Part shown: in pieces, positions 13,401-56,603 of the stretch | Layout: each line of letters begins with the position of its first letter | How positions within the stretch are numbered: position 1 is the first letter of the stretch | From: Branchiostoma floridae | Lineage: Eukaryota; Chordata; Leptocardii; Amphioxiformes; Branchiostomatidae | Reading direction: 5' to 3' | Length of the DNA: 64,000 nt | NCBI RefSeq assembly: GCF_000003815.2 | Contig: NC_049992.1 | Location: 6,202,461 to 6,266,460, forward strand | Notes under the pieces: model-generated | What the model saw: only the letters and a program-made list of their open reading frames with translations | What the model was told of the DNA's origin: nothing | Databases searched by the model: none | Made by a program: the position numbers and the translations under genes

Positions 13401-16400
13401 TTATAGTCATTTCCGCTAAGTTTTACAGAGGCAGTTAGCCTTGTAGGATTTTAGAATGAATATGGGAGTCAAATACTCCACAAAACATACTTCTTTGTAG
13501 CGAAATGGTCCATAATTTCGAGTATCGTCCATTCACATGTTTTCACATACAGAATCAGGTTCAGGTCCGGACCTGGACCTGATCCTCTGGACCTGAACCG
13601 GATAATAATTGGACCTGAATTTTCTGTACCGGTACCCACCCCTACCGCTAATGGTAGTAAACTGTAGAATTGCATGACCTACTCAGGGTTAGACAAATTC
13701 ACCCCCATGAAACTCCTTTTCCGCCGTACGCCGAAAATATCGCCGTACCCGCTAAAAAATATCGCCGTACCCGCTAGGCTCGCCGTACCCGCTAAAAAAT
13801 ATCGCCGTACCCTAAAAATCTCGCCGTACCCGTCCCTTTCCGCCGTACGGAATAGCCGGCCACATGGCATACCCACACGAAGGTCGCATCTAAATACCCT
13901 GTACGGCGACGATACACGGTCTCATATAGCCTATGCTATGGGAAACATTCCTGGCCACCACTCTGAGGAGTGGCGTTGTACAAATCGCGCCCAATGTTGA
14001 GAACACTTCTGCAAACTTTGGTGAGAAGCGGTCTGGAGCGCCCGAGAAACCCGGAAGTGAGTTTCGCATCAACGTCAGCGCTTTTCGAAGGGGACGAAAT
14101 CGGTAGACAATTAATTTAGTAACGTTACGTATTTCACAATTTCATTCATTGTATTGTATTGTACTGATATGGCGTGTCCCTTTTATTCCTACCCTCTTAG
14201 TTCATTATTTGGCTAGGGAGTTCCTGCAACGTTTCCCATTGCAGGGATTTAACGTATAAGTTATATCCCATTTTAAGTGTGGAAGGCGAGGTTGGTGATC
14301 ATGACAATGACTCTCTATAAGGAGAAGTGTTAATACAATGTAGCAATCCATAATATACATTTTTGCTGATTTTTCCAAGTCCTCATTGTAGTAAGACGGT
14401 CATTTTTACCTTTGGAAGCAAATGGTGAGTAAAGCAGTGATAATTAAATTGATTTATTTACAGATATCTTACTTAGCACCTTATACAATGCACCCTTATT
14501 GCTGCTTATGTTTCACTCTCAAGGCCCCCCCATCAACGTTTAACTCCACAGAGTCACAGGAATATGAGTGGGATGATATTGACATCTGCATGAGGTAACA
14601 TAGTTATCTGTCCAGTTGGACTTTATGCATCTTATGTTGTCAGAATATGATACAGAATCATTGTGGTTTCATTTGCACAATTACATCTAATGTAGTGTTG
14701 CAGCAACGCTGAAAAGTTGAGATAAAGCAATGCTTTGTATGGTACTTTGTTTATGTTTCAGTTCTGGTTCCTGCTGAATGAGTTTAGTTGAGTTGTTACT
14801 GCTGTACCAGTTAATATAAAATTCTTTAAATCCATTTTTGCATTCATTCATGATATATTTCAGTATCTTTAATTCTCCTGCAGATTTAGACCTAGTAGGA
14901 CATTATATTGTAAGAATAGAAAGGAAATCTAGTAATGAAAAAGAAGTAGTCTGTGCATATTGAGAACATTCTTGTCTGAAATGTGTACCATACATTCATT
15001 AGCAACTCTTCTATAATGAGGCTAAAGTTGGACTCAATTGCTAGTATGACTTTAATATATTAAATAGGGCACCTGTGTGTTGTATATAGCTACATACTGG
15101 CTTCGTATGCTTTATGATAATGATGATGACCATTTTTTTCCATTTTCATTTAGAATGAATGGATGGGAAGCCAAATGTCACTCAATATGGTGTTTCTTGG
15201 TGCTGATAGCGAAGAAGCAGACTATCAATTATCTTAATATGCAAACATAGACTGCTAATTTGTACAAAAGGTGCAACAATATGTACAATATGCAGAACTC
15301 AAAATAAAAGTAGTGATTTAGACATGTGCATGTAAATAGATGTTCTCTAATGTTCTCAATACAAATGTATTGTACAATATATACACAGAAGCAAATGAAT
15401 AAATAAAGCTCAACTGTAAATGTTGCACTTCTGTCTTGGCCTTCTGTATGTTGTGAGGGATCTTCACATGTATTTACTGGTGGTGGTGGATCTTCACATG
15501 TCTTCACTGGTGTTGGGGGATCTTCACCTGTATTCACTGGTGGTGGTGGATCTTCACATGTCTTCACTGGTGTTGGGGGATCTTCACCTGTATTCACTGG
15601 TGGTGGTGGATCTTCACATGACTTCACTGGTGTTCACGGGGGGATCTTCATATGTTACTGAATATTTACTGGTGTTGGGGGATCTTCACCTGTGTTCACT
15701 GGTGTTGGGGGATCTTCACCTGTATTCACTGGTGGTGGTGGATCTTCACATGTCTTCACTGGTGTTGGGGGATCTTCATATGTTACTGAATATTTACTGG
15801 TGTTGGGGGATCTTCATATGTTACTGAATATTTACTGGTGTTGGGGGATCTTCACCTGTGTTCACTGGTATTGGGGGGTCTTCATATGTATTCACTGGTG
15901 GGTGGAGAGTCATATGTATTTACTGGTGGTAGGGATCTCCATCTGCACTCATTTGTGGTGGTGACCCAGGTGTGAGGGTGACTGAACTGATAATGGAATA
16001 TCTGCGATTGTGTACAAATTCCATGTTTGTGCTACTCTCCAAGCAGAGGTTAGGCGCCGGCTGTTTATTTTTTAAAACTTTTTTAGGTGTTTTTATTGGG
16101 CTTTCTATTTTGTACCATTTTCTTGATGTCTCGTGTTAGGTCAAAAAATGGAAAGCTCGCTGAAGACGCCTAAAAAGGTGAACTTGAAAAAGGAGCCTAA
16201 CCTCTGTCAAGTTGGAGAGTATGTTTGTGCTACAATCTCATCTTATCAAATCGCCACACATTGCAGTAAACATAATTCGACTATGGTTGAGTCCACTAGC
16301 CCTTTATCTCACACCACCCTCCATTACTATACCCCACCAAGACCCCTGTAAACAGACACTACTAGTATATTTATCCTGAACAGAGACAGTCGCCCAGACT

Positions 16401-19103
16401 GCTGTTTATTACCTGTTGTTTCTTATTATAACGAACTGGCAATAGTTGTCACCGTTTGTTCCTGTAAGACCGGATAGTTTAAGTTTACTTAACGTTTCAT
16501 CAACCTTCAAAGTTGACAGTATCCGTCTGCTGAAAAGGGTTCAAGTCAAGTTTGTCACCACAGACGACTGTCACTTCCGGGTTACGCCGAATCTCCGCTT
16601 CTCTACAGACCGCTTCTCACCAAAGTTTGCAGAAGTGTTCTCAACATTGGGCGCGATTTGTACAACGCCACTCCGCAGAGTGGTGGCCAGGAATGTTTCC
16701 CATAGCATAGGCTATATGAGACCGTGTATCGTCGCCGTACAGGGTATTTAGATGCGACCTTCGTGTGGGTATGCCCTGTGGCCGGCTATTCCGTACGGCG
16801 GAAAGGGACGGGTACGGCGAGATTTTTAGGGTACGGCGATATTTTTTAGCGGGTACGGCGAGCCTAGCGGGTACGGCGATATTTTTTAGCGGGTACGGCG
16901 ATATTTTCGGCGTACGGCGGAAAAGGAGTTTCATGGGGGTGAAATTTTCATAAATTCACTTGTCGTATCAGGCAAGTAGATATAAGATTTACTTGCCCGA
17001 ACTAACTTTTCACTTGTCCGGACATTTAAATGACAATTGTATTTTCAATTCCATCAATGGAATTCTTTAATTGTTGTCTCTATATTTCTGTGTTGACCAA
17101 TGCTTGATGCCATGACTGAAAGGTAACAAGTATATGAAAATCTCTTTCATGGAATAATCTTTTTTGCCTGATTGGAGAAACTGTTGCTGTAGAAGGACTT
17201 GGAAACTGGCAATTGAACAGTATAGCGATGTGACTTTGAAGAGAGCCTTGTGTTGCCCTGAAAGGCTCTCAGTAGAGGGACAAGTAGTAAGACTAAGAGA
17301 TAATTGGAGCAATAGCCATGGAAGTACCGGTAAAAAAGGGACAGGGATGAAATATTTCGCCTGTGGGAGAGAGGGTCAAGCTTAGATGCTAACTGATTGC
17401 CAATGGCCATACAAATTCTTCTTTGAATAATTCTTCTTTGAAATTCTTTCTGTGGCCATATTATAAGGAATACAATGAATATGTACTCATTTTCATAGGG
17501 GGATTTTTCTTATTTCTTGACAGGAACGGATCTTCACCAACTACAAGCAGATCCAGTTCCGCCCCCACCAGTTTGTGGCCTACCTCCTGTCAGCAGAGGT
17601 CGGCTTCAGCAGCTGCAGACAGCTGGAGGGGCCACGCAACAAGTCTAAAGGTGAGGGGGCACGGAGAGAGGGAGGGGGGGAGTAAGGGAGGCAGTGAATG
17701 AGTGAGTGAATGAATGTCAGTACATGTAAGTGTCAGTGAGGTAGTGTCCAAATGTGTCATTGAGTGAGCATCGTTGAGTAAGTGAATGAGTGAAGGAGTG
17801 TCATTGAGGGAGTGTCATTGAGGGAGTGAGTGAGTGAGTGAGTGAGTGAGTGAGTGAGTGAGTGAGTGAGTGAGTGAGTGAGTGAGAGTGAGTGTCTGAG
17901 TGAGTGAGTGAGTGAATAACAATAAGTGAGTGAAGGAGTGTCATTGAGTGAGTGAGTGAATGTCAGAAGGTTTCAGTGAGTTAGCGTCTGAATGAGGCAG
18001 TGAGTGAGTGAGTGTCATTTAGTAAGTGAAGGAGAGTCATTGAGTGAGTGTCATTGAGTGAGTGAGTGAATGAAGGAGAGTCATTGATTGAGTGAGTGAG
18101 TGAGTGAATGAAGGAGAGTCATTGAGTGAGTGAGTGAGTGAGTGAGTGAGTGAGTCATTGAGTGAGTGAGTGAGGGAGTGAGTGAATATCAGTGGATGTC
18201 AGTGAGTTAGTGTCTAAATGAGTGAGTGTCAGTGAGGGAGAGTGTCAGTGAGTAAGTGGGAGTCATTGAGTGGGTGTCATTGATTTGATTTGATTTGATT
18301 TATTGGAATTGCGACAATACAATACTCGCGGATCACAGGCAGCAGTAGACTGGTTTTGTGATCCACACATCAATACGTATACATATAAACATTACATTAA
18401 TACACTGAAAAGATAGAGCATTGGTTAAAAACTATTAACGTTAAGTACAATAAATCTACATTCAGGATGTGATCTAAAATATAAATTAGGCACTCAAGGT
18501 TCGTAATCTCTGCTTGAACATACTGAGGCTTTGGGCTTGCTTTACTGATTGCGGCAGTTCATTCCAAAGTCGGGAAGCATAAGGGATGAAGGTAGATCTG
18601 TACGTCTGGGTCCTACAGCGAGGAAGGTGTAGGTGCGTGGAGTTACGGAGTTGTAAACGCGTGGCTCTATGCTCTCCTTGGGTGGTCGGTATCAGTGGTT
18701 GCAGATTAGGGGGGACTAAGCCGTTTACAAGTTTTAAGTGAGTGAGTGAGTGAGTGAGTGAGTGAGTAAAGGAGAGTCATTGAGCGGATGTCATTGATTG
18801 AGTGAGTGAGGGATATGAGTGGGTGTCAGTGAGTTAGTGACTGAATGAGTAAGTGTCAGTGTGTGATTGAGTGAGTGAGTGAGTGAAGGAGAGTGTCATT
18901 GAGCGGGTGTCATTGAGTGAGTGAGTGTGTCATTGACTGAGTGAGGGATTGATTGAGTACATTTGTTGTATTAGAACTTTTCCTGATTGCTTGTTTTGTA
19001 TTGCGTGTCTTGTGAGAAAACTAACCTGTTCTTTTTCTTTCTTTGCCCAGGTTTCCACCGACCAGTCTACATGTTGACCAAGTCTCCGGCTGCTCCCCCA
19101 TGA
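10411..19103 (+). CDS. MEPCE: 7SK snRNA methylphosphate capping enzyme (MEPCE / Bin3 family)
   Basis: Four exons join in phase: 10411-11949, 12966-13184, 17524-17650, 19051-19103 (stop TGA), giving 645 residues against about 689 in human. The enzyme methylates the gamma-phosphate of 7SK snRNA using SAM and helps hold the 7SK particle that restrains P-TEFb; it is nuclear. Residues 1 to about 390 are Lys/Arg/Ser-rich and low complexity, as in the family. The Bin3 methyltransferase domain starts at [18 protein letters not shown] motif I is [10 protein letters not shown] (427-436), followed by GMDIDQNLI. Exon 2 carries [11 protein letters not shown] and LRPGGRF, then EPQPWKSY, all diagnostic of MEPCE. 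Exons 3-4 carry FRPHQF, VGFSS and FHRPVYM. The start ATG at 10411 (ACCATGG) has good context. Introns hold many repeats. A possible poly(A) signal, ATTAAA, is at 19731. Confidence 0.95.
13205..13644. mobile_element. hAT-like non-autonomous element with 8-bp target duplication
   Basis: Left end TAGGGCTGGGTACCGGTACAG and right end CTGTACCGGTACCCACCCCTA are 21-bp inverted repeats with one mismatch. They are flanked by CCACTAAT and CCGCTAAT (7 of 8 equal). The inside is full of GGACC/GGTCC words. It starts 20 bp after MEPCE exon 2. Fragments of the same family occur at about 7590-7685 and 24575-24640. An 8-bp duplication is typical of hAT; the assignment is inferred. Confidence 0.7.
13684..14056 (+). 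mobile_element. CGCCGTAC-repeat element, copy A
   Basis: After CAGGGTTAGACAAATTCACC come several CGCCGTACCCGCTAAAAAAT units, then a unique stretch with CTGGCCACCACTCTG and AGTGGCGTTGTACAAA. The copy at 16576-16950 matches it closely in reverse complement. It lies in MEPCE intron 2. Confidence 0.8.
15455..15950. repeat. 30-bp minisatellite in MEPCE intron 2
   Basis: Units near TCTTCACCTGTATTCACTGG plus a TGGTGTTGGGGGA segment alternate in two main versions over about 500 bp, with a longer variant that adds TATGTTACTGAATATTTA. A 30-bp period keeps the frame, so both strands read open (a Pro/Thr repeat on minus). No other sign of coding is seen. Confidence 0.85.
16034..16220. mobile_element. 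CTCTCCAAGCAGAGGTTAGG MITE, copy 1, 11-bp target duplication
   Basis: Inverted ends ACTCTCC...GGAGAGT are flanked by exact ATGTTTGTGCT at 16023-16033 and 16221-16231. The interior is a near-complete palindrome (TTTTTAGGTG / CGCCTAAAAA). The second copy is 36536-36728. TSD length fits Mutator-like or P-like elements better than Tc1 or Harbinger. Confidence 0.8.
16576..16950 (-). mobile_element. CGCCGTAC-repeat element, copy B (inverted)
   Basis: This is the near-identical reverse complement of 13684-14056, including the CGCCGTACCCGCTAAAAAAT units and the same unique region. Beyond its outer end the sequence switches to ACTTGTC/ACTTGCC words like those of the element at 4368-5048. Confidence 0.8.
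17690..18950. repeat. (TGAG)n microsatellite field
   Basis: Long runs of GAGTGAGTGAGT with GTCATTGAG and GTCAGTGAG variants fill most of MEPCE intron 3. A retrotransposon fragment interrupts it at 18281-18736. Confidence 0.95.
18281..18736 (-). mobile_element. 3' end of a CR1/L2-like non-LTR retrotransposon
   Basis: On the minus strand an open frame ends at TAA (18488-18486). Its C-terminal residues include [18 protein letters not shown] and [10 protein letters not shown], the typical tail of CR1/L2-type reverse transcriptase polyproteins. The frame runs back to about 18736 and is 5' truncated there. The 3' end is an ATCAA(A)-type short tandem tail (18281-18300), as in CR1/L2. It is inserted in the TGAG field. 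Confidence 0.8.
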
Positions 19104-48600: not shown

Positions 48601-50704
48601 AAAAGTCAGCAAAAGGAGAAGAGATAAGAAAGAGTGCACTTGTCAAGAGCTGTAAACAGAATCTGGCAAAAGTCAATGTCAGCATGCACAGTGCCAACAT
48701 AGCTTCAAATTGCAAATGAACTGACACTATTCAATTGCAATGAACTCATTATTCTATATGGTATAGGCGCTGGTGTTTCAACAACTGCGGCAGTTGTTCA
48801 CTTACACACTATGGGAAACACTCCATTTTGTGCCTTACTGTAGAAGGCCAAATAATTAAATCACTGCAAACTTAAAATGCATTTTCCACCAGTATTCTGA
48901 ATGCTGAGTCTAGTTCTATTTACCTCCCCGGAGAGCGAGAATGTTGCGGATGCCCAGCTCCTTACACAACAATTCAGGTGAACCAAAACACCTGAAGTCA
49001 ACTAGAACACCAGAAACCATTCTACTATAGTAAGTATCTAACCTAACTTAAATGTAACACTTGTTCCCCTTTATTTATGGGGTAACCTATATTCCCTGTT
49101 TTCTAAAACAGTGCATTTAGATATATCAAGTTGATGCACATTGGTAATTTTAAACGGCAGTTTGCAATTTACAACTACCATCTGTTGACTTCATATCTCT
49201 AAATGCACTGTTTTTTTTACAACATAATGAACATAGGTTACCCCATGGATTTAGGTGAACTATCAGAGCTCCACAAAATGCTAGCCTTTTTTCCAACTCA
49301 CCTCCCCGGAGTGCTAGAATGTTGCGGATGCCGAGCTCCTTGGCCTTGTCCAGGTGTCGTCTGATGTCATCCTTGGTGGAGTTGCAGCAGCTCATGTGCA
49401 GCATGGTCTCGTGTCCCACGTAGTTCAGCGCCGCGCAGGCGATGGACATGGAGCTGGTCTCCTTATCGCTGTTACCGGGGTCCCCCGCGGGGTGCCAGGT
49501 GATGTCCATGAACATGGGTCCGCCCTGGACCATACGCTCGAACCTGGGGGATTCAAACAACACCAGGTTACATCCATACATGAACATGGGTCCGCCCTGG
49601 ACCATACGCTCGAACCTGGGGGATTCAAACAACACCAGGTGATATCCATACATGAACATGGGTCCGCCCTGGACCATACGCTCGAACCTGGGGGATTCAA
49701 ACAACACCAGGTGATATCCATGAACATGGGTCCGCCCTGGACCATACGCTCGAACCTGGGGGATTCAAACAACGCGTCATTTAGATATATGGGTCCGCCC
49801 TAGATCATACGCCCAAACCAGGGGAATTCAAACATTTAGATAATTAATTTCTGATTGCTCACGAAACAGTCCCTTAAAGGCCTAGGAAAAAAATGTCCTG
49901 AAAAAATTAGGTTCAGTTAAGGTTAAGGGACTATCTTTTATTTTTCAATCTTTTTTAGACTTTGGCCAAAACTCTTAGTTGATACAATACAATTTAACAA
50001 TTAGTAAAACTGAAAGAGGGTCTGCATGGGGGGTCCCTACAACGACCTATGCTAAATTCAGAAGAGCCCCCTACATAACACTAAATCAAGGACTTGGCAA
50101 TTACTCTAAATTTGGTCGCCTCGCTACTAATTACGTAGATAAGATGGTTTTCCCTGCGAATTACGGGAAATAACATAGGTTGCCTATGCCTTACGTAAAA
50201 GAGCATGCAGACCCTCCTGAAATGTAAGTGGACACTAATATTTTCAATGTCAAAGTTTGATTAAGTGCATAATCTGTAGATACATTTATCCTTCTGTCAT
50301 TTTTCCGTCAATGGGATTTGGGCTCACGGAAAAAAATTAGAGCTTGCTAGAGCCCCGCCACTTATACACATGTACAGTGTATACTGCTATTGCAGCAATA
50401 ACAGCAGGGGTAACAATTTAAGGATAAGAATTGGTTCCTTTACAATACAAGCTATATAGAGAAACCATGTAAACCATTACCTATTTACAAACAACACAAA
50501 AACAAACCTTGAGATCAAGTTGGCAGCACCCTGGGGGGTCCTCGGCGGGAAGAACTCCAGCGAGAACCAGCGCTCTCCGCGGTCGATCTTCGCCTCGATC
50601 CTGTCGGCGAGCTTGACGTACGGAGTGCCCAGTGTCGGAGACGACGGGCGCGACCCGTTGGAGGGCGTGCTCGCTCCGCTGCTCGTGTATCCTGAACTCG
50701 ACAT
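39608..50704 (-). CDS. MTHFR: 5,10-methylenetetrahydrofolate reductase
   Basis: Twelve coding exons join in phase: 50704-50508, 49543-49302, 48413-48300, 47037-46844, 46340-46143, 45262-45075, 42900-42720, 42112-41930, 41727-41629, 41080-40958, 40390-40259, 39817-39608; 686 residues against 656 in human. The cytosolic flavoenzyme reduces 5,10-methylene-THF to 5-methyl-THF with NADPH. The FAD TIM-barrel half shows SLEFFPPRT (catalytic Glu50), [47 protein letters not shown] and [11 protein letters not shown]. The linker and SAM-binding regulatory half show [61 protein letters not shown] and [16 protein letters not shown]. The N-terminus has Ser/Thr-Pro sites like the human phosphoregion. The C-terminus has an extra tail with HHDDDD. 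The first coding exon starts at an acceptor at 50735, so a 5' noncoding exon exists. Confidence 0.97.
39941..40158. mobile_element. TA-flanked MITE, copy 3
   Basis: TACTGTAAATGCATTTAAGT to GTTACAGTA, with decayed TTTGCGG words and a CACTGTAGTCT centre. It lies in the last MTHFR intron, 123 bp upstream (minus strand) of exon 12. Confidence 0.8.
40433..40572 (-). mobile_element. Truncated copy of the tRNA-SINE of 47189
   Basis: The reverse complement matches the 3' part of the SINE at 47189-47469: TTAGCATTCAGCACT, ACTACCAGCAGACTAGCCCCTTG, GGCCCAAGGGCAACAGAAA, ATGGGCACCACCC. In an MTHFR intron. Confidence 0.75.
42200..42592. repeat. Dispersed repeat with AATACAGCACAGGATATTCC
   Basis: Words match the region 26760-27180 in NECAP intron 2 in the same order: ATACA.CACAGG.TATTCC, then GACATCAATGCACAT.(A)CGTCAAC, then TTGAACC or CAATTCGAAC. 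The ends show a weak inverted pair (TATAGAATACAGCACAGG / GCCCGTGTATGATATA). A non-autonomous transposon is likely. Confidence 0.4.
42928..43021. repeat. Repeat fragment (GTCTG.GTAAC.CAAACTC ... TTAAATCAGGCTA)
   Basis: The same start and end words, about 95 bp apart, occur at 58308-58402. The middle differs. Family unknown. Confidence 0.5.
43795..43962. repeat. Foldback repeat with CCAGCTGTCAG..CAATCAGA arms
   Basis: Left GGGCTGAGATTTCC...AACCAGCTGTCAGTCAATCAGA pairs imperfectly with TCTGATTGGCTGATAGCTGGTT...GGAAACTTCAGTCC. In an MTHFR intron. Confidence 0.65.
44446..44836. mobile_element. Complete CCTAGGAAAAAAA MITE
   Basis: AGGCCTAGGAAAAAAAATG..GTGTTTCCTGTTTC is inverted at the right end (GAAACAGGAAACACAACA..TTTTTCCTAGGCCT). 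Fragments lie at about 3765, 25290 and 49873. In an MTHFR intron. Confidence 0.8.
45455..45560. mobile_element. Possible non-LTR retrotransposon 3' end
   Basis: TTTATTGCACATTTTTGCCCC.CTGGGCTAAGTACAGG is the kind of 3'UTR tail seen in L2/CR1-type elements, in minus orientation. A similar, weaker tail lies at 53655-53712 (TTTATTTGCAAATTCATGCCC). No open frame is attached. Confidence 0.35.
47189..47469 (+). mobile_element. tRNA-derived SINE with 14-bp target duplication
   Basis: ACTAGGGCAACAAC flanks it exactly at 47175-47188 and 47470-47483. The head is tRNA-like with a pol III A box TGGCCTAGTGG (47197-47207) and B box GTTCGATCC (47242-47250). The body ends in a T-rich run. TGC falls near the anticodon position, so a tRNA-Ala origin is possible. 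3' fragments of the family lie at 40433-40572 and 57108-57195. Confidence 0.9.
48924..48963 (-). pseudogene. Stray copy of the 3' end of MTHFR exon 2 with a donor
   Basis: The 40 bp encode [13 protein letters not shown] and are followed by GTAAAT. They match the native exon end (49302-49341) at 37 of 40 positions; all three differences are silent. An upstream acceptor-like CAG lies at about 49016. It is in the intron between exons 2 and 3. Confidence 0.75.
49505..49830. repeat. Tandem array of the MTHFR exon 2 acceptor region
   Basis: The segment from the intron end TTTGAATCCCCCAG through GGCGGACCCATGTTCATG of exon 2 recurs upstream. Exon-start points are 49543 (native), 49615, 49687, 49755, and a degraded one near 49818. 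The steps are 72, 72, 68 and about 63 bp. Confidence 0.95.
49873..49990. mobile_element. Fragment of the CCTAGGAAAAAAA MITE family
   Basis: AAAGGCCTAGGAAAAAAATG, then AAAAAATTAGG, AGGGACTATCTTTT and TTGGCCAAAACTCT, parallel words of the copy at 44446 in rearranged order. Confidence 0.5.
50016..50216. mobile_element. 201-bp GAGGGTCTGCATG MITE, copy 2, 6-bp target duplication
   Basis: Identical ends to 36840-37040. CTGAAA flanks it exactly at 50010-50015 and 50217-50222. In MTHFR intron between coding exons 1 and 2. Confidence 0.85.
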
Positions 50705-54449: not shown

Positions 54450-56603
54450 CTAGACGCCGTTCTCATGAGCGTCGCTAGGCACGACTGCCACCTGGCGGCG
54501 GCCTCTGGTCCTGCACCAATAGTACGTCACCAAAGCCACACACGCGCACACTAACAGCACAGCACAAGCAGAAACCAGTAGCATGGGGCCGTTCATGAGA
54601 AAGTGCTCTGGCCAAGCCGTTCCCTGTGGTAAAGTTACTGTGGTGTTTTGTGGTGCTTGGGGCACAGGGGATGTTGAGGTGGCTGTCGCTGGATCGGTGG
54701 TACTCGGTTGTACAGGTGGTGTAGAGTTGGTTGATGGCGGATCGGTGGTAATTGGTTGTATGGGAGGTGTAGAGTGGGTTTTAGTTGTTGGAGGATCGGT
54801 GGTACTTGGTTGTACGGAAGATGTAGGGTTTGGGTTGGTTGCTGGGGGATCGGTGGTACTTGGTTGTACATGAGGTGTACAGTTAAGGTTGGTCGTCCGT
54901 GGATAGGTGGCACTTGGTTGTACAGGAGGTGTAGATTTGGGTTTGGGTGCTGGAGGATCGGTGGTACTTGGTTGTACAGTATATGTAAAGTTGGTTGCAG
55001 GGGGGTCGGAGGTACTTGGTTGTACAGGAGGTGTAGATTTGGGGTTCGGTGTCAGTGGGTCGGTTGTACTTGGTTGTTCAGGAGATGAAGCGTTGGGGTT
55101 GGTTGCTGGAGGATCGGAGGTACTTGGTTGTACATGAGGTGTAGAGTTAGGGTTGGTTGTCCGTGGATAGGTGGCACTTGGTTGTACAGGAGGTGTAGAT
55201 TTGGGTTTGGGTGCTGGAGGATCGGTGGTACTTGGTTGTACAGAAGGCGTAGAGAAAGGGCTGGGTGTTGGTGAGTCGGTTGTACTTGGCTGCAGAGAAG
55301 ATCGGGGATTGGCTGGAGATGAACACGTGACGTCAGAGCACATCGCTTCCACCGGTATCTCCATGATATGCATGGTCCCCGCACACCCTGGGAACGAGCA
55401 CGTCAGACGCTGTGGACCCTGGACCAGAGATGTCTTATCCAACCACGATCTCATCTCGACAAGATCGCATCCACACTTCCAGGGGTTGTCATTCAAGTAC
55501 AAGTACAACAACCCCGGAGGTAGAGACTTCTCAATGTGTTGTAGAGTCTCGAATCTATTTCCCGATAGTTCGAGGGTTCTCAGATTCTGGGGAAGTTCTT
55601 TAGGGATGACTGTGAGAGAGTTTCTCTTCAAACTCAGTCTAACAAGTTGCTCTAGCGCGGCAAAGACACCTGTAGGGACGTCTTCTAAGTTGTTGTCGTC
55701 AAGAAAGACTTCTTGCAGAGAACGTGTCCCTTGGAAGGCGTCACTGATCAAGAATTCGATTCCGTTGGAGCTGAGATCTAGCTTCAACAAGTTAGGGAGA
55801 TGGGCAAAGCTCTGGTTATGGAGAGTAGTGATGTTGTTATTGTATAGATAGAGCTGTTTTAGCGATGGAGTTGCAAACGCGTGAGAGCCAATGTGGGATA
55901 TTTTGTTGTTCTGTAGACTCAGAGTTTGAAGACAACTCAAGCAAAGGAAGGAGTGCGATTCTATCTTCGTCAGCTTGTTGTCTTCTAAGTTAAGCCACTC
56001 GAGACTTGTGAGGTTGCGCAGTGCTCGAATCGGGACGACAGAGAGTTTGTTTTCAGCGAGACTCAAATCACGAAGGTTCTCCGTTAATACGAAAACGTTC
56101 TCAGCCATGTTGACCAGTTCGTTTCCGGAAAGCACAAGAGCCCGAAGCGCTGGAAGGTTAGCAAAAGCCGCTTCTTCCACCACCGAGATCTCGTTGTCTC
56201 TCAAGTCAAGGCGTTCCAACATCGGGAGGTCGCTGAACGTTTCGCCGCGAACAACCGTGAGAAGGTTTTCGGACAAATCCAGACGACGGAGGGCTGACAA
56301 CCCGCAAAAGGCACCAGAAGATATGTTCTGGATTTGGTTTGCGTTTAGAATGAGTTTTTCAAGATTGCGGAATGTCAAAAACGTATCTGTTTGGATGAAG
56401 GCGATTTGGTTTCCCGATATCATAGCGAAGGTGGTGTCAGACGGGATGGAGGAGGGTATGGACGTGAGACCGACGGCTTGGCAGTACAGCTGGCCTAACA
56501 CACACGTGCACGGTGTCGGACAGGTGTGAACGGGCTCGCCAAGGAGCGAGACGAAAGTAGCAAAGACGAGGAGGAAAGAAGTGTGGCCTTTTGTAGAAGA
56601 CAT
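54450..56603 (-). CDS. Leucine-rich-repeat type I membrane protein with Pro/Thr repeat stalk (paralog A)
   Basis: One open coding exon of 717 residues. The ATG at 56603 lies five bases after a 3' splice site (TTTTTGTAG), so a noncoding 5' exon exists upstream. Order: signal peptide about 1-26; cysteine-rich LRR cap (CPTPCTCVLGQLYC); about twelve 24-residue LRRs from residue 40 to 350; C-terminal cap with NPWKCGCDL...CSFPGC; a stalk of imperfect repeats of the PPVQPSTTDPPAPKP type (about 54640-55320); one membrane helix about 674-696 (LLVSACAVLLVCACVALV); a 21-residue tail starting CRTRGRR. It is a cell-surface recognition protein by architecture; ligand and function are unknown. Paralog B follows downstream in sequence, same strand. 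No orthologue name can be given. Confidence 0.88.
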   Translation of the reverse strand: MSSTKGHTSFLLVFATFVSLLGEPVHTCPTPCTCVLGQLYCQAVGLTSIPSSIPSDTTFAMISGNQIAFIQTDTFLTFRNLEKLILNANQIQNISSGAFCGLSALRRLDLSENLLTVVRGETFSDLPMLERLDLRDNEISVVEEAAFANLPALRALVLSGNELVNMAENVFVLTENLRDLSLAENKLSVVPIRALRNLTSLEWLNLEDNKLTKIESHSFLCLSCLQTLSLQNNKISHIGSHAFATPSLKQLYLYNNNITTLHNQSFAHLPNLLKLDLSSNGIEFLISDAFQGTRSLQEVFLDDNNLEDVPTGVFAALEQLVRLSLKRNSLTVIPKELPQNLRTLELSGNRFETLQHIEKSLPPGLLYLYLNDNPWKCGCDLVEMRSWLDKTSLVQGPQRLTCSFPGCAGTMHIMEIPVEAMCSDVTCSSPANPRSSLQPSTTDSPTPSPFSTPSVQPSTTDPPAPKPKSTPPVQPSATYPRTTNPNSTPHVQPSTSDPPATNPNASSPEQPSTTDPLTPNPKSTPPVQPSTSDPPATNFTYTVQPSTTDPPAPKPKSTPPVQPSATYPRTTNLNCTPHVQPSTTDPPATNPNPTSSVQPSTTDPPTTKTHSTPPIQPITTDPPSTNSTPPVQPSTTDPATATSTSPVPQAPQNTTVTLPQGTAWPEHFLMNGPMLLVSACAVLLVCACVALVTYYWCRTRGRRQVAVVPSDAHENGV
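54640..55320. repeat. Coding minisatellite in paralog A stalk
   Basis: Imperfect units of about 60-75 bp, marked by GATCGGTGGTACTTGGTTGT on the plus strand, encode the Pro/Thr stalk. The same composition creates open frames on the plus strand that are shadows. Confidence 0.9.

Follow-up and report, generated by a model that had tools for sequence, protein, structure and literature searches.

Exon 2 of a core metabolic gene of the lancelet Branchiostoma floridae, the gene for methylenetetrahydrofolate reductase (MTHFR), is preceded within intron 1 by a series of near copies of its own start, each with the preceding intron end. Which of these acceptors makes the mRNA, and is the series a splicing device or neutral repeat growth, the two possibilities offered in a preliminary description? 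Here, we report an analysis of the 64,000-nucleotide stretch of DNA that holds the locus (the window), of the surrounding genome, and of related arrays.

The MTHFR gene and its exon-boundary repeats

MTHFR is encoded on the minus strand of the window, where exons 1 to 6, when joined, give a 377-residue protein. This protein matched the Pfam MTHFR family (5e-114, profile search) and PDB chain 8qa4, named methylenetetrahydrofolate reductase (9e-169), which we take to be the human enzyme. The codon for Arg66 is split AG/G across exons 1 and 2 (a slash marks a splice junction throughout), and GT forms the first bases of 3 of the 11 MTHFR exons from exon 2 to exon 12. The genome (513 Mb, 431 contigs) was searched with the MTHFR exons, and all four listed matches fell at the window locus (five candidates scored), on which basis a paralogue or second haplotype was rejected. 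A literature search (amphioxus plus methylenetetrahydrofolate reductase) returned no dedicated paper, by title, on lancelet MTHFR. The exons and repeat units that concern us are as follows, with the native start of exon 2 as copy A:

50508..50704, minus strand: MTHFR coding exon 1; ends on the first two bases of Arg66; donor AAG/GTTTGT
49302..49543, minus strand: MTHFR coding exon 2, native, copy A (242 nt); donor GAG/GTGAGT
49544..49615, minus strand: unit B, 72 bp; exon-like start at 49615; ends in the native exon's intron end and acceptor
49616..49687, minus strand: unit C, 72 bp; exon-like start at 49687
49688..49755, minus strand: unit D, 68 bp; exon-like start at 49755; MDITW word kept; out of frame with the native exon
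49789..49834, minus strand: unit E, degraded (87% over 46 nt); CCCCCAG replaced by CCCCTG ahead of 49818

The end of intron 1 and the start of exon 2 are thus copied in series upstream of exon 2 on the minus strand. TRF called a 72-bp unit at 49507-49773 (3.8 copies, 95% matches) and, in a second call, 4.7 copies at 90% over 49511-49834. Exon-like starts lie at 49543 (native), 49615, 49687, and 49755, with TTGTTTGAATCCCCCAG directly before each, giving three near-perfect copies with a CCCCCAG acceptor at +72, +144, and +212 from the native one. Units B and C agree at 71 of 72 bases in one alignment frame, differ at two of 72 when compared acceptor to acceptor, and are identical over the first 37 bases of exon 2. 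Unit D matches exon 2 at 98% over 49 nt (E value 6e-19, comparison within the window) and unit C at 59 of 72 bases with the 4-bp step uncorrected. Unit E reads CCCCTG/G where the others have CAG/G, so that the AG is gone, and its exon-like part contains an in-frame stop. Similarity within the array is far beyond chance. All of A to D read CAG/GTTCGAG, so the duplicated segment holds AGGT. The preliminary description had reported a repeat of the intron end plus about 37 bases of exon 2, starts at 49615 and 49687 lying 72 and 144 bp upstream with the same CCCCCAG and open into exon 2, and a fourth copy at a 68-bp step that keeps MDITW and shifts frame; the TRF calls and the 37 identical bases in B and C bear out the first of these, its coordinates, steps, and frames are right, and the fourth copy is unit D at 49755.

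The array lies inside a 21.8-Mb contig and gave one match in the genome search, in which only the best candidates were scored. A dispersed repeat or transposon was rejected on that one match among the best candidates scored and because the array's matches within the window were confined to the exon 2 region and a single 17-nt stretch. A structural RNA role was likewise rejected, as two stretches folded no more stably than shuffled sequences (z, −0.64 and −0.39).

A 4-bp insert common to B and C is absent from D and from the native exon, so the 68-bp unit looks ancestral and B and C look like a later doubling. Unit E looks like the oldest copy, given its 87% match over 46 nt and its different edges, and its lost AG and its stop are as expected of unconstrained intron DNA. 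Upstream of D stands a different intron sequence, with a TGAC, which is possibly the original intron end. The array probably arose when the 3' end of intron 1 was duplicated in tandem together with 37-49 bases from the start of exon 2, giving a small minisatellite that then gained more units and decayed at its upstream edge.

The other end of exon 2 has a copy too, as seen in a comparison of the window with all 12 MTHFR exons (3' ends approximate for exons 7-12):

48924..48963, minus strand: copy of the exon 2 3' end with donor GAG/GTAAAT (40 nt, 92.5%), in intron 2

It was the only other exon-boundary copy at an E value up to 0.001, and its three differences from exon 2, compared by eye as two strings, all fall at silent third positions.

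Other repeats were seen elsewhere in the window. An AT-rich 46-bp unit occupies 1264-1804 (11.8 copies, 99% matches), two arrays of 22-bp units lie about 3 kb apart at 13734-13832 and 16809-16907 with consensus units that look mutually reverse-complementary, and a 54-bp repeat at 54691-55289 (11.3 copies) lies within a 2235-nt minus-strand open frame and probably encodes a repetitive protein.

Splice signals and reading frame of the copies

Acceptors A to D have an equal pyrimidine share (0.65) and the same CAG. Under the TNAY branch-site rule used here, the branch-site-like word is TAAC 25 nt before A, TCAC 25 nt before B and C, and TGAC 22 nt before D; the AG-free stretches before B and C, each with its TCAC, are 53 and 49 nt long. 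Two of these words are candidate branch sites of particular interest:

49567..49570, minus strand: TAAC, branch-site-like, apparently derived, in unit B; its A lies 25 nt upstream of native exon 2; putative function
49776..49779, minus strand: TGAC, branch-site-like, 22 nt before acceptor D; possibly the original branch site; putative function

TAAC looks derived because the exon itself has TCAC (within ATCACC), making TCAC the exon-derived state. Five of the 10 other MTHFR acceptors (exons 3, 4, 6, 11, and 12) have TAAC at 20-33 nt and the exon 9 acceptor has it at 46 nt; the word is absent from the AG-free stretch of the remaining four (exons 5, 7, 8, and 10) and is therefore not required. 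When unit C was varied by two substitutions, 6.2% of variants gained a rightly placed TRAY and 1.8% gained TAAC. Against this background, and with the motif sought after the fact, the TAAC before A is suggestive, in that it fits use of the native site, and is weak as proof of selection. In a globin array of the same genome (L010, described below), the 75 nt printed upstream of the native acceptor match those upstream of the last copy; a superior branch site thus does not, as a general rule, tell native acceptor from copy.

Entry at B or C is open and in frame into exon 2, which confirms the earlier reading of 24 or 48 residues inserted just after Arg66; the two differences between B and C both change residues in the read-through frame. 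Entry at D shifts the frame and meets a stop 123 nt before the end of exon 2, and a premature stop of this kind predicts mRNA decay. The in-frame step was considered as a sign of selection and rejected, as 57% of in-frame units stayed open when the non-exonic part of the unit was shuffled. With the ancestral-looking 68-bp unit out of frame, and the 72-bp units owed to one 4-bp insertion, the step is weak evidence for a device, and the in-frame spacing of B and C is unremarkable.

Kindred arrays and known systems

Lancelet "mirages" are described, in the excerpts of two papers, as minisatellite-like tandem duplications of an intron-exon boundary in Adh3, the globins BflGb6 and BflGb9, TnC, and PGBD5, with units of about 10-160 bp, many of which carry AG or GT signals (PMC3087553, PMC3902484). 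The unit is 150-160 bp in BflGb6, where copy number differs between haplotypes, and 157 bp in BflGb9 (excerpt of PMC3087553). Regular splicing is given as undisturbed in that excerpt from globin RT-PCR and Adh3 data (PMC3087553); for the PGBD5 mirage, the excerpt reports predicted splicing and cites Adh and TnC as undisturbed (PMC3902484). An excerpt of a huntingtin paper mentions tandem repeats and not mirages (PMC2206037).

As in the mirages so described, the tandem unit of the MTHFR array spans an authentic intron-exon boundary and adjoins the authentic exon, the AG is kept in many but not all units (B, C, and D, with loss in E), and the internal units are alike (B and C) while the edge units (D and E) have diverged; either exon end may be affected in mirages. 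It differs from those in the excerpts in lying in another gene, in having copies at both ends of one exon, and in having two units in frame with the native exon.

Other such arrays occur in the same lancelet genome. A globin search, run as a positive control, gave nine matches. At one (L010), a 158-bp array of 4.2 copies runs into a globin exon, its acceptors following one another at intervals of 154, 158, and 158; at another (L006), the end of a globin exon is repeated at a 157-bp step. These two fit the BflGb6 and BflGb9 arrays as given in the excerpt of PMC3087553. The exons at both acceptor-side arrays seen here, MTHFR and L010, start with GT. Within 200 kb around globin genes, a donor-side 55-bp array of 16.9 copies (TRF; L018:3894-4999, at about 10.334 Mb of G000:C4) has as its unit an exon end with its donor, GTGAGT. 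There are 10 near-intact copies of the donor word, counting that of the exon itself as the first, and the exon before the array matched nitric-oxide synthase in PDB (1e-22). From its sequence, this array reads as a donor-side mirage in a nitric-oxide-synthase-like gene.

The window and the fetched loci (293,052 bases, with five window-overlapping loci excluded, and not all distinct, as some small globin loci lie inside 10-kb stretches) were scanned for acceptor-side arrays. Five rows were returned, two of them in MTHFR (one being an AG seven bases into the exon), one in the L018 array, and two in a 33-bp array (L030). The scan missed the known globin array L010, where just one donor-like site exceeds 3 bits, at 4.5 against a cut-off of 7, and so it is no measure of frequency. 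Nor were the fetched stretches a random sample, having been selected around globin genes. A donor-side scan returned globin L006 (the same place again in L029), L018, and MTHFR at 49302; its other rows were many in the 33-bp arrays of L029-L031 and one on the plus strand within the MTHFR array.

Another known system is the gain of introns through tandem AGGT duplication, with Rogers 1989, Hellsten 2011 on ATP2A1, a fission-yeast 24-bp case, and potato RdRp among the instances in an excerpt of PMC4974935. As in those instances, each MTHFR unit holds AG/GT and is formally a possible intron of 68-72 nt; unlike those in the excerpt, the MTHFR copies lie within an existing intron, with no new intron position seen. 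In NAGNAG tandem acceptors the AGs lie three bases apart, and the MTHFR steps of 72, 72, and 68 fall outside that definition. TG-AG acceptor pairs are treated as close tandem acceptors in an excerpt of PMC2374985. With these tandem alternative acceptors, as far as the excerpt describes them, the MTHFR array shares the presence of several acceptors before one exon and differs in that its candidate acceptors stand at steps of 68-72 nt, which come from duplication of the whole boundary.

Choice of acceptor

The repeat, its units, its single locus in the genome search, and the kindred arrays are direct observations. We put at about 0.88 the probability that the array is a lancelet mirage, with the native acceptor at 49543 most likely making the MTHFR mRNA and the upstream copies leaving with the intron. 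Splicing at A is most likely because only A gives the conserved protein, because A is nearest the strong exon 2 donor (leaving an exon of 242 nt rather than 314, 386, or 454), and because the branch-site-like TAAC stands at A and is absent at B and C. For lancelet splicing in general, our favoured candidate cue to the native site is closeness to the exon's donor. As a counterpoint, neither pyrimidine tract nor CAG distinguishes A to D, and acceptor D, which lies nearest to exon 1 and is preceded by a TGAC of its own, could possibly be chosen. If B or C were used leakily, the protein would gain 24 or 48 residues, and use of D would give a premature stop and probably a decayed mRNA. Of the two possibilities first offered, neutral growth is thus the better supported, by the mirage anatomy, the kindred arrays, and the stop in E; the in-frame step is weak evidence for a device.

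A device could take several forms. That B and C are used meaningfully, giving MTHFR isoforms lengthened by 24 or 48 residues after Arg66, accords with their CCCCCAG, the TCAC in their AG-free stretches, and their open, in-frame reading, but is unlikely: the insert would repeat a piece of the enzyme where the protein aligns gap-free to MTHFR chain 8qa4, both differences between B and C change residues, and mirages are reported, in the excerpts at hand, as not disturbing splicing (PMC3087553, PMC3902484). B or C may possibly be used at a low level. The same excerpts (PMC3087553, PMC3902484) speak against a productive/unproductive switch, in which D would compete with A and send part of the transcripts to nonsense-mediated decay; the TGAC 22 nt before D and the stop it leads to would suit such a switch, which we consider highly improbable. 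Re-splicing of a wrong join is conceivable because each intact copy is AG/GT. In a self-correcting scheme of this kind, splicing to any upstream copy would rebuild a donor (AAG/GTTCGA), from which the next copy could be joined, and so on to the native exon; any copy number would be tolerated. The original branch site would have stayed with copy D at the first duplication, and selection would have favoured the TAAC in B for giving the native acceptor its function back. This is quite unlikely, and two points speak against it: the rebuilt donor is weak (3.5 bits versus 5.7 for the exon 1 donor), and it would also be present in the finished mRNA. As to a unit being spliced out as a new intron, there is a weak hint in the unit's own donor, CAG/GTTCGA, which scored 3.6 bits against the same 5.7; 13% of all GT in the window, on both strands, score at least as high.

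An assembly artefact, with copy number wrong or the array absent, has a precedent in the BflGb6 array, which was aberrantly assembled in the draft genome according to the excerpt of PMC3087553. It is nonetheless very unlikely for MTHFR, where the units have differences of their own (two substitutions, the 4-bp step, and a degraded E) and the array sits within its 21.8-Mb contig, matched once among the best candidates scored.

The MTHFR array is no new kind of device and joins a known kind. With it, and alongside the nitric-oxide-synthase-like gene, a core metabolic gene joins those lancelet genes that have splice-boundary repeats. Its near-identical acceptors, which differ mainly at the branch-site region, offer a natural test of 3' splice site choice among equals and also of the tandem-duplication route to new introns.
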